A model generated the notes under the pieces. The model worked only from the letters and a program-made list of their open reading frames with translations. It was not told where the DNA came from and did not search any database. Of a DNA stretch of 64,000 nucleotides, positions 2,765-56,227 are shown piece after piece (positions within the stretch are counted from its first letter, which is position 1; the number at the start of each line of letters is the position of its first letter). The stretch spans positions 1 to 64,000 of the forward strand of contig NZ_JAFLRF010000009.1 in the NCBI RefSeq assembly GCF_017315705.1, in the 5' to 3' direction. A program made the translations under genes and the position numbers. The DNA comes from Trinickia mobilis. GTDB lineage: Bacteria > Pseudomonadota > Gammaproteobacteria > Burkholderiales > Burkholderiaceae.

Positions 2765-2780
2765 TGGGGCCCGACAGCGT

Positions 2781-2809
2781 TGCATGGGACCCGAGTAACT
2801 CGGGTCGAC
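2781..2809 (+). repeat. Family A palindromic repeat, core-deleted copy
   Basis: Begins TGCATGGG and ends GTCGAC. The arms GACCCGAGT (2788-2796) and ACTCGGGTC (2798-2806) are perfectly complementary and separated by one base. Compared with the full copy 40 bp downstream, only the 15-bp core is missing. Confidence 0.85.
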
Positions 2810-2814
2810 CGCGG

Positions 2815-2858
2815 TGCATGGGACCCGAGTAAGCGCTAAAGCGCTAACTCGGGTCGAC
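2815..2858 (+). repeat. Family A palindromic repeat, full copy
   Basis: TGCATGGG start, arm GACCCGAGT (2822-2830), core AAGCGCTAAAGCGCTA (2831-2846), arm ACTCGGGTC (2847-2855), end GTCGAC. It is followed directly by seven A residues, which form the T-tract of the minus-strand terminator. Confidence 0.9.
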
Positions 2859-3022: not shown

Positions 3023-3138
3023 CCCCCACGCTCACTATCGTTCGCTGTCGACCGGAGTTAGCGCTTTAGCGCTTACTCCGGTCCCATGCAAAGCTCCCCC
3101 CGAGGGGGCGGTTGCCTTCCTCTGGGCGGCCCAGCGGA
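3023..3138 (+). repeat. Family C repeat interrupted by a family A copy
   Basis: The left part (3023-3047, CCCCCACGCTC...TTCGCTG) and the right part (from 3095, CCCCCGAGGGGG...GGGCGGCCCAGCGG) match the uninterrupted copy at 48647-48707. The family A element at 3047-3090 separates them. Confidence 0.7.
3047..3090 (-). repeat. Family A palindromic repeat, inserted in family C
   Basis: On the minus strand it reads TGCATGGG, arm GACCGGAGT, core, arm ACTCCGGTC, GTCGAC. Arms are at 3075-3083 and 3050-3058 on the plus strand and are fully complementary, though different in sequence from the copy at 2815. It interrupts a family C repeat. Confidence 0.88.
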
Positions 3139-28064: not shown

Positions 28065-28069
28065 CGCGA

Positions 28070-28113
28070 TGCATGGGATCAGACTAAGCGCTAAAGCGCA
28101 AAGTCTGATCGAC
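28070..28113 (+). repeat. Family A palindromic repeat abutting the gcdH ribosome site
   Basis: TGCATGGG, arm GATCAGACT (28077-28085), core, arm AGTCTGATC (28102-28110), ATCGAC. CAGGAG, the gcdH ribosome site, begins two bases after it. Confidence 0.9.
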
Positions 28114-36355: not shown

Positions 36356-36955
36356 ACGGGTTCCGTTAAGTGTGTGCAGGTTGACCGAAGCGTGCGCGGA
36401 TACGTACCGATCGTACGCTGCGCTGCTGGCGGCTGGGCCAGCCCTGACGTGGCGGATGAAGTCCTGAGGTTCCGTTACGCGGGGCGCGGCAACCAGCAGC
36501 AGCGCAAACAACGGCGCGCGGCTCACGGCTGCCCAGGCGAACGGCAAAACGGCACCCTGCGCTTCACGGTGGGTGGCTCCACCTTGCCCCCGATGGGGTG
36601 CTATCGCCAGTCACGCAGGGATGAGCGCGTTAGTTTATTGGAACCTCATTGAATAGGCAACCGCATGACGCACCCGGTTCGAACCCCTGTGCGAAGCCCC
36701 CGCGGGGCGGGCTTCACGGCTGATTTCCGGCCCCGCGGCAGATCCCGCGAAACGTCCGAATGGCACCTTCCGCCAGGGCTTCATCGGGAACGCTGCGCGG
36801 GCCCGGCGCGCGCAATCGTTTGCGGACATGCGCGAACGCCGAGCCGCTTTTTGGCCCCGCCATCGGCCAAAGGCCATTCTTGCCGCAAGATCGCAATGGA
36901 AGTAGGCTCTCAACCTTCCGCTTTCCCCATCCACCGACCCGACCAGGGAGCAGTA
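36356..36955. other. 600-bp intergenic region between glyA and ydfG
   Basis: Divergent promoters must lie here. An AT-rich patch with TAAACT/AATAAA (about 36633-36643) is the best glyA promoter candidate. GAAGCCC (about 36694-36700) and GGGCTTC (about 36710-36716) form a 7-bp hairpin. A GCCCCCGCGGGGC piece there resembles the family C hairpin top. I see no convincing ORF or known riboswitch. Confidence 0.4.
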
Positions 36956-43399: not shown

Positions 43400-43475
43400 G
43401 GGTCGTTAGCTCAGCTGGTAGAGCAGCGGACTTTTAATCCGTTGGTCACAGGTTCGAATCCCGTACGGCCTACCA
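43400..43475 (+). tRNA. tRNA-Lys (anticodon TTT)
   Basis: 76 nt including encoded CCA. The acceptor stem GGGTCGT pairs with ACGGCCT (two G-U pairs). D-loop AGCTCAGCTGGTAGAGC, anticodon loop CTTTTAA with TTT at 43433-43435, and T-arm GGTTCGAATCC are present. Confidence 0.97.
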
Positions 43476-46922: not shown

Positions 46923-47178
46923 CGCAATCGTCGGCACGCGGCCCATGTAGCGCGGCAGCGGATTAACGTGAACCGGGCCACGCGTTTCTTAAGCGTCTGG
47001 TTATTTTAGGCTGCGAATCCCCGGGACGTGTCAGCGCTTTCATGCGCGCGGTGAGAAACATCACCGCCGCTGCGCAATTTCGCAATTGCCGGTGCGCGCC
47101 CCGCGCTGGCAGCATGGCTTCACTTTGCGAACGTGCGCGCGCAAGCCGTGCGGGTTGCATCGCAGCATAAATAAGCTT

Positions 47179-47203
47179 TGCATGGGATCGACATCGGGTC
47201 GAC
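47179..47203 (+). repeat. Family A repeat, remnant
   Basis: TTGCATGGGATCGAC followed by ATCGGGTCGAC: both ends of the element with the arms and core mostly lost. Confidence 0.6.
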
Positions 47204-47208
47204 AGCCT

Positions 47209-47301
47209 TGCATGGGACCAGAGTAAGCGCTCTGCATGGGGCCGGAGTAAGTGCTAAAGCACTAACTCCGGCCGACAGCTAAAGCGCTAACTCTGGTCGA
47301 C
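47209..47301 (+). repeat. Family A repeat, outer copy split by another copy
   Basis: Left arm GACCAGAGT (47216-47224) and right arm ACTCTGGTC (47290-47298) are perfect complements. The core is interrupted between AAGCGC (47225-47230) and TAAAGCGCTA (47280-47289) by 49 bp. Removing those 49 bp restores a perfect element. GTCGAC (47296-47301) overlaps the start of the xylA ribosome site CAGGAG. Confidence 0.92.
47231..47279 (+). repeat. Family A repeat, inner copy nested in the outer copy
   Basis: TGCATGGG start, arm GGCCGGAGT (47240-47248), core AAGTGCTAAAGCACTA, arm ACTCCGGCC (47265-47273), CCGAC end. Both arms and core differ from the outer copy, yet stay self-complementary (AGTGCT with AGCACT). 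Confidence 0.92.
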
Positions 47302-47312
47302 AGGAGACGCTC

Positions 47313-48635
47313 ATGTCCTACTTCGAAAACATTCCCGCGATCCGCTACGAGGGCCCGCAATCGGTCAACGCGCTCGCGTTCCGCCACTACGACAAGACCA
47401 AGCGCGTGCTCGGCAAGACGCTCGAAGAACATCTGCGCATCGCCGTCTGCTATTGGCACACGTTCTGCTGGCCGGGCAGCGACATCTTCGGGCAAGGGAC
47501 TTTCCACCGGCCGTGGCACCAGCCCGGCGACGCAATGGAGCGCGCGCACATGAAAGCGGACGTCGCGTTCGAATTCTTCTCGAAGCTCGGCACGCCCTAC
47601 TACACGTTCCACGATACCGACGTCGCCCCCGAAGGCACGAGCCTCAAGCACTACAGCGAGAACTTCGCGCGCATGACCGACCACCTTGCGAAGAAGCAGC
47701 AGGAAACGGGCGTGAAGCTCCTGTGGGGCACGGCAAACCTGTTCTCGCATTCGCGCTACGCGGCCGGCGCCGCGACCAACCCGAACCCTGAAGTGTTCGC
47801 TTACGCAGCGACGCAGGTGCGTCATGCGCTCGACGCGACGCAGCAGCTCGGCGGCGAGAATTACGTGCTGTGGGGCGGCCGCGAAGGCTACGAGACACTG
47901 CTCAACACGGACCTCGCACGCGAGCGCGAGCAGCTCGCGCGCTTCCTGAACATGGTGGCCGAGCACAAGCACAAGATCGGCTTCAACGGCACGCTCTTGA
48001 TCGAGCCGAAGCCGCAGGAACCGACCAAGCATCAATACGACTACGACGTCGCGACGGTGCACGGTTTTCTCACCCAATACGGCCTGCAGAACGAGTTCCG
48101 CGTCAACATCGAAGCGAATCACGCGACGCTCGCCGGGCACTCGTTCCATCACGAGATCGCGACCGCGTTCGCGCTCGGCATCTTCGGCAGCGTCGACGCG
48201 AACCGCGGCGATCCGCAAAACGGCTGGGATACCGATCAGTTTCCGAACAGCGTCGAGGAATTGACGCTTGCGTTCTACGAAATCCTGCGGCACGGCGGCT
48301 TCACGACCGGCGGCATGAACTTCGACGCGAAGCTGCGGCGCCAAAGCACCGATCCCGAAGACCTGTTCTACGGGCATGTCGGCGCAATCGACAACCTCGC
48401 GCTCGCGCTCGAACGTGCCGCCGCGCTCGTCGAGAACGACCGGCTCGAGCAGTTCAAGCAGCAACGCTATGCGGGCTGGGATACGGAGTTCGGACGCAAG
48501 ATCCTGTCGGGCGGCTACACGCTCGCAACGCTCGCCGCCGACGCAGCCTCGCGCGCCCTCAACCCGCAGCATGCGAGCGGGCAGCAGGAGCGGCTCGAAA
48601 ACGTCGTGAACCAGACGATCTACGGCGCGCATTGA
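47313..48635 (+). CDS. xylA: Xylose isomerase
   Basis: 440 residues, class II length. Converts xylose to xylulose. The metal and substrate motifs are intact: [59 protein letters not shown]. The ribosome site AGGAG is directly joined to the end of a family A repeat. xylB follows after a 102-bp gap filled by a family C repeat. Confidence 0.97.
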
Positions 48636-56151: not shown

Positions 56152-56227
56152 CATACACCGTAGCCGGCCAGTTGGCTGGGATTCTCCCGATCGAGAAACT
56201 GCGGGCCGTCCCAGATTTTCAGGAAGC

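Follow-up and report, generated by a model that had tools for sequence, protein, structure and literature searches.

Compound hairpin upstream of a xylA-like gene

The analysed stretch, a window of 64,000 nucleotides from the genome of Trinickia mobilis (G000), contains a gene on the forward strand at 47313..48632 which we take to be xylA from the look of its sequence, as the initial annotation had. Its start codon is at 47313, and its best match, in Paraburkholderia nodosa, is 86% identical. A Shine-Dalgarno-like purine tract, AGGAG (47302..47306, +), precedes the gene, and directly 5' of this tract lies a nested compound element of 97 bp (47205..47301, +). Reading of its letters divided the compound into the 5' half of an outer element (47205..47228, +), a complete inner 48-bp element of the subtype GGCCGGAGTAAGTGCT/AGCACTAACTCCGGCC (47229..47276, +), and one extra A followed by the 3' half of the outer element (47277..47301, +). 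An internally deleted unit of 29 bp (47175..47203, +) is located immediately 5' of the compound and head-to-tail with it.

When 49 bp (47229-47277) were excised in silico, a perfect 48-bp outer element was restored, GC-CT-TGCATGG-GACCAGAGTAAGCGCTAAAGCGCTAACTCTGGTC-GAC, and the excised 49 bp contained a complete 48-bp element with the arms GGCCGGAGT/ACTCCGGCC. The initial annotation had described one palindromic element inside the loop of another, with a deletion of 47231-47279 restoring the outer element and a complete element with different arms in the deleted piece. The letters of 47205-47301 confirmed this description, and the two 49-bp intervals are one event because GC/GCT stands at both ends. 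The element also has no coding capacity, as had been stated, being too short to carry a gene for its own enzyme. As single-stranded DNA, 47206-47304 folds into one long hairpin (-33.8 kcal/mol, z = -8.6).

Consensus, copy number and distribution of the hairpin

The core of the element, GAGTAAGCGCTAAAGCGCTAACTC, had 162 matches with up to three mismatches in the 8.0-Mb genome of T. mobilis (82 and 80 on the two strands), and its backwards control had none. Together with the z-score of the fold, these counts ruled out a chance palindrome. A consensus built on 84 filtered copies out of the 162 core matches gave a unit of 48 bp, GC-NN-TGCATGG-GACCN-GAGTAAGCGCTAAAGCGCTAACTC-N'GGTC-GAC, in which N and N' covary. 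This pair, 16/41, forms in 87 of 94 end copies from several genomes when wobble is included, against a shuffled mean of 41 of 94, and all four Watson-Crick pairs occur at it, showing that the arms hold compensatory changes. Head-to-tail tandem arrays with a 49-bp period were common; such arrays can grow by slippage.

Simple copies were also present in the window. A full element followed by an A-run (2811..2858, +) stands in tandem with an internally deleted unit of 33 bp (2777..2809, +), another simple element lies directly 5' of ACAGGAG and ATG (28066..28113, +), and a third is set within a second repeat family (3047..3094, -). The search pattern proposed in the initial annotation, with a spacing of 20-44, matched only two simple copies in the window. 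Two more variants of the element were noticed at 56153 (-) and 7075 (-); one of them has the arms CCAGGGT/ACCCTGG, and one lies within the second repeat in the other orientation. The second repeat, GCCCCCTCGGGGGGC-AGCGAACGnnnGTGAGCGTGGGGG (around 3047-3094 and in L001-L026), occurs with or without the hairpin inside, and the composite of both is itself repeated, with 30 filled and 6 empty-like contexts in the fetched DNA, some locus overlap remaining in these numbers.

The core was matched 134 times in G001 and 79 times in G002, two congeners. Among 149 genomes searched, the genome under study included, the element was present in 26, which belong to 7 of 80 genera and to one family throughout. 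In the plasmid collection it was found at 62 places in 24 records, of which 9 were from Paraburkholderia, 8 from Burkholderia, and 7 from Caballeronia. As a separate observation, arrays in the genus g12 (L201, L202, L203, L204) are built alternately of the element and a sister type, GTGGGG...CCAACCACGC, with a double period of 92 bp, and these alternating arrays sit before Shine-Dalgarno sequences, including the presumed atpC leader of G082.

Several origins were considered and set aside. A known RNA family was rejected, since no Rfam match reached the gathering score at the element; the sub-threshold match was mir-BHRF1-1 (20.3 vs 95 bits). The same search placed a ZMP/ZTP riboswitch above the gathering score at 36524-36624 (-), and a tRNA gene lies at 43400-43472 (+). 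A phage-borne element was rejected with 0 exact matches to one stringent pattern in viral_contigs, and no autonomous parent element ending in the two halves was seen in the fetched loci of G000.

Empty sites and insertion junctions

The presence of the same compound at all xylA loci of related genomes had been named in the initial annotation as an observation that, with no empty sites, would speak against movement. Among the best 10 of 80 xylA leaders compared (9 from Paraburkholderia and 1 from Caballeronia), eight were without the element, and the other two, in P. madseniana and P. atlantica, carried a single non-nested hairpin. The eight leaders show that empty sites exist. The two single hairpins differ in sequence from each other, and both stand before a Shine-Dalgarno sequence.

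Sixteen G000 sites were sought in six relatives after removal of their elements, and 13 of them, that is all except L029, L062, and L045, were fetched and aligned. Four sites had a cleanly empty counterpart in a congener (L043 and L020 in G001; L050 and L068 in G002), and five were nearly clean, with a few differing bases on the left side (L048 in G001; L075, L027, L033, and L049 in G002). Three sites (L036, L028, and L041) were without the element and too diverged for placement of the junction, and one was filled (L042, one unit in G002 vs two in G000). G002 was also filled at L020 with three units and at L048 with one. The site L043 was found in three states: G001 is empty there, G000 carries an array of two units, and G002 has a compound that is worn.

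In four syntenic regions, 14.5-20 kb in length, a loose pattern detected 11 sites, some of which are worn or doubtful because up to 13 substitutions were allowed. The cleanest insertion stands before a gene taken as atpG from the look of its sequence, where G021 reads TTCGATC|AAGGAGCAAG and G040 reads TTCGATC[48 bp]AAGGAGCAAG; no base was duplicated or lost, and AAGGAG follows. Elsewhere 48 or 49 bp were added, with the extra base on the left. Clean sites differ by 0-1 base on the left side of the junction and other sites by more, so that the ends are not exactly fixed. A fixed target duplication was rejected, with AGC/GCT at some junctions and one base or none elsewhere.

At the presumed atpC leader, the element of G000 has a rare arm, GACGAG; of 84 G000 copies, 1 has G at the position concerned. 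The same arm is common to elements at this site in other genera, and G001, G002, and G040 are empty there. In the atp tree G000 clusters with G001 and G002, and identity over the four regions groups G000 with G002. Exact excision in the congeners was favoured at first on the shared arm; it was dropped on finding that the intergenic sequence of the empty sites in G001 and G002 differs, so that recombination explains the pattern as well. Differences in presence and absence could therefore partly reflect recombination, as at atpC. The family is mobile or has been so in the past, as judged from sites that are empty in congeners and in other species, and the hairpins likely moved to spots before ribosome-binding sites and beside transcription terminators.

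Sequences 3' of the element

We analyzed the flanks of end sites, which were chosen by pattern filters that a few tandem or nested remnants passed. The first base 3' of the element was A at 85 of 95 sites, while A opens 17% of window positions, and purines occupied 7.4 of 10 positions on the right vs 4.8 on the left. A Shine-Dalgarno sequence within 5 nt together with a start codon followed the element at 41 of 94 sites, compared with 0.7% of window positions; the same pattern was found in 0 of 94 left flanks and in 2 of 94 flanks shifted by +25 nt to the right. AAAA within 6 nt was found at 29 of 94 sites vs 1.0% of window positions, and only one site had both patterns. Several A-run sites have a gene on the opposite strand beyond the terminator, for example genes that look like tRNA-Asn (L062) and tRNA-Asp (L075), which places the element immediately behind that terminator's T-tract. 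What the insertion sites share, as read from these flanks, is a tract of pyrimidines on one strand with T as its last base. Selection may have a part in this positional pattern and could mimic a target preference.

Alternatively, the copies would be host regulatory or mRNA-protecting hairpins, kept by selection in front of ribosome-binding sites and at terminators and spread by recombination instead of transposition. Their positions, the compensatory changes of the arms, and the partly kept pairing of the outer stem in compounds, where the variable outer pair forms in 15 of 21 aligned rows (truncated ones included) vs 9.0 after shuffling, are consistent with such a function. However, different single hairpins occupy the same xylA spot in two species while most leaders have none, and the 48-bp insertion in the atpG leader left its flanks unchanged. 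We regard selection and recombination as an unlikely explanation of the family.

Nested compounds at other loci

A pattern for the nested junction had 16 matches in G000. With a stricter outer part it had 14 matches in G000, 4 in G001, 5 in G002, 1 in G040, and 1 in G054, which makes 5 of 149 genomes with that of T. mobilis included; the controls of the junction patterns had none. The match in G040 is a look-alike produced by a tandem neighbour, and the match in G054 is to a compound in which a 25-nt piece is repeated. At 10 of the 16 G000 loci the two outer halves are both kept and the inner element is whole, with outer arms that match incompletely at L323 and L327. The outer 3' half is missing at three others (L320, L326, and L332), and at the remaining three (L330, L333, and L335) the inner 5' half is joined to an apparent outer 3' half. 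The compounds read in G001 (three) and G002 (two) keep both outer halves. The uniformity of the inner elements is partly built in, because the junction patterns were built on one inner subtype, GTGCT/GCACT. At one nested-type locus of G000, L078, the inner core belongs to the other subtype; L314, the likely orthologue of this locus in G002, shows the usual one. As a further observation, L310 (G054:C93) may be a triple-nested remnant, in which the 25-nt inner 3' half occurs twice ahead of the outer 3' half.

The filled and empty forms within the xylA locus had been taken in the initial annotation as proof of movement. Mobility of the family stood, on the empty sites described above, but the locus itself is not the record of a fresh insertion. 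Since the same compound recurs (16 matches in G000, 4 in G001, and 5 in G002), an older nesting event followed by copying of the 97-bp form fits better. On the sequences compared, an early origin of the 97-bp compound followed by its spread as a unit is most likely, with a single origin weakened by the use of patterns built on one inner subtype and by the inner core of L078.

The nested loci might instead be independent insertions into a hotspot in the loop, where (A/C)GCT is similar to the element's left end, in other words mis-targeted tandem insertions. The loop site GC|GCT does match the junction between tandem units, and both the triple-nested-looking remnant in G054 and the different inner core of L078 would suit repeated events. 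The T that marks the inner subtype is, however, found in only 8 of 84 consensus-set G000 copies, some of which are themselves nested inners, whereas the subtype is present in 10 of 10 full G000 compounds read, a proportion raised by a search pattern that favoured it. Recurrent insertion into the loop is accordingly a possibility to which we assign a low probability.

The nested form could also be what remains of a three-unit tandem array in which unit 1 lost its 3' half and unit 3 its 5' half, with no insertion into a loop. Arrays with the 49-bp period are common and contain truncated units, one of which (47175-47203) is directly 5' of the compound. This origin needs two deletions ending at matching loop positions at many loci, and in the window the outer halves rebuild a perfect element. 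The loci L314 and L078, likely orthologues as judged by eye, also speak against it: both outer halves are present in G002 and one is lost in G000, suggesting that halves can be lost after nesting. We consider decay of an array quite improbable as the source of the compounds.

RAYT-like Y1 protein as candidate enzyme

G000 had a single Y1-domain match, a RAYT-like protein of 235 aa (G000:C64:19131-19835; L081 / L353). Most genomes of the bacterial family that have this protein gave one match, with second copies in G054 and G064. Between G000 and G002 the protein is 99.6% identical, against 93.9% at the nucleotide level. At the HUH stretch the G000 protein reads GAVQ where HVH is expected. The motif was parsed at 33 of 36 given loci, second copies in G054 and G064 being left out and element counts being those of the 149-genome search. 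The first histidine was absent in 23 of 23 parsed element-bearing genomes and the second also in 18, with RQVQ at this position in the six g12 genomes that were parsed; the first was absent too in 7 parsed genomes without a core match. HVH was kept in 3 parsed genomes, all without a core match, and G071, also without the element, reads HMH.

Y1 domains were found in 110 of 149 genomes, many of them without the element. G002 gave an additional strong Y1 match (E 2e-44), and G001, with its 134 element copies, has just one. The initial annotation had proposed looking for a transposase or RAYT-like gene flanked by the element; no element was recognised beside the sole RAYT-like gene of G000 in a seed scan of 3.3 kb (L081). 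No mobilising enzyme was found, and the only Y1/RAYT-like protein detected in G000 has lost HUH histidines. This loss and the single Y1 match of G001 make a standard RAYT an unlikely mover of the element in G000 or G001. The altered protein may have taken on a domesticated role.

A classical REP/RAYT system, in which the resident Y1 protein cuts the hairpins, would agree with the strong conservation of the one such gene in G000 and with hairpins lacking a consistent target duplication, but the missing histidines in element-bearing genomes, the absence of the element from the genomes read with HVH or HMH, and the lack of a GTAG tag or of an element recognised beside the gene make it distinctly doubtful.

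Proposed origin and movement

With confidence slightly above even, we propose that the compound consists of two copies of a REP-like 48-bp hairpin, likely moved as a single strand by a predicted trans-acting enzyme and inserted 5' of A-led purine tracts. This proposal builds on the consensus, the compensatory hairpin, the presence and absence of 48-49 bp, the purine tract at the junctions, the 49-bp arrays, and the recurrent nesting. The single-stranded hairpin would be the moving form, an enzyme acting in trans would move it, and insertion is predicted just 5' of tracts such as Shine-Dalgarno sequences and the A-runs of terminators. One copy of the GGCCGGAGTAAGTGCT subtype would have been inserted into another copy's loop, between GTAAGC and GCTAAAGCGC. 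The double hairpin of 97 bp formed in this way would then have spread as a unit, with one copy ending before xylA, and any effect that the compound may have on xylA is likewise a prediction.

A broader reading is that the family represents a new class of self-nesting mobile hairpins. Ribosome-binding sites and terminator tracts would serve as landing pads, the moving activity would be non-canonical (that of a repurposed RAYT lacking the HUH histidines, or RNA-based copying with priming at pyrimidine tracts), and complexity would grow via insertion into the elements' own loops. We put this forward as a speculative and rather unlikely generalisation.

Bacteria are rich in hairpin repeats, and the movement of those that lack a cognate transposase is an open question. 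The family described here combines a defined unit of 48 bp with empty sites and a neighbour sequence that can be recognised, and the only RAYT-like protein found in its genome looks catalytically dead. Its copies at ribosome-binding sites, for example in the atp operon and before xylA, form a natural series for the study of effects on translation and mRNA stability.

Comparison with known systems

No description of this hairpin family was found in the literature search, outside which most subscription journals lay, and the word Burkholderia has 0 occurrences in the main texts of PMC3733652, PMC2817692, PMC8266576, and PMC6006769. The element is unlike MITEs with terminal inverted repeats (Correia, RUP): its cleanest insertion had no duplication, and its outermost GCNNTGCA and GAC are not inverted repeats.

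Insertion sequences found within REPs, for example ISPpu9 (PMC8450116), are alike in placing a mobile element within a palindromic repeat, whereas guest and host here are repeats of one kind.

IS200/IS605 elements transpose as single strands. The element resembles them in having a hairpin near the ends and in being inserted next to a short sequence with no consistent duplication of the target. It is unlike them in that no autonomous element or catalytic partner was found, and its neighbour is a purine tract instead of a fixed tetranucleotide. Some features of these elements are treated in PMC8266576 and PMC2817692.

GTAG REPs, BIMEs, and REPINs with RAYT (TnpA-REP) are likewise non-coding palindromes in more than 100 copies with proposed mobility in trans, and one RAYT-like gene is present here too. 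In contrast, the 84-copy consensus has no GTAG (GTRG) tag at the foot of the hairpin, the arrays are head-to-tail, the resident RAYT-like protein has no HUH histidines, and no element was recognised beside its gene in the 3.3-kb seed scan.

The statement of the initial annotation that the family is not REP was too strong: the element is REP-like, with a TGTC tag and a CCA tail as in CGTC-type REPs, yet it lacks some features of these REPs. According to Di Nocera et al. (2013; PMC3733652), CGTC REPs have a CGTC (or TGTC, CCTC) tag, mostly a CCA tail, no known transposase, a stem of 8-9 bp with AT at its first and second positions, and a loop of 4-5 nt; HH dimers predominate and HT dimers are negligible. 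Compared with that account, the element is also a high-copy intergenic hairpin with no dedicated transposase known, and its loop is 4 nt. Its unpaired foot tag, TGTC on the complement, corresponds to GAC in 84 of 84 G000 copies under a copy filter that allowed up to 2 mismatches in that end, followed by A in 69 of 84; the CCA tail at the other foot corresponds to TGG on the top strand (T in 82, G in 84, and G in 83 of 84). It differs from CGTC REPs in its stem, which has 9+5 bp, an A-A mismatch, and GA instead of AT as first bases, in its head-to-tail arrays with a 49-bp period, in a longer conserved outer arm (TGCANNGC beyond the tail), and in its nested compounds.
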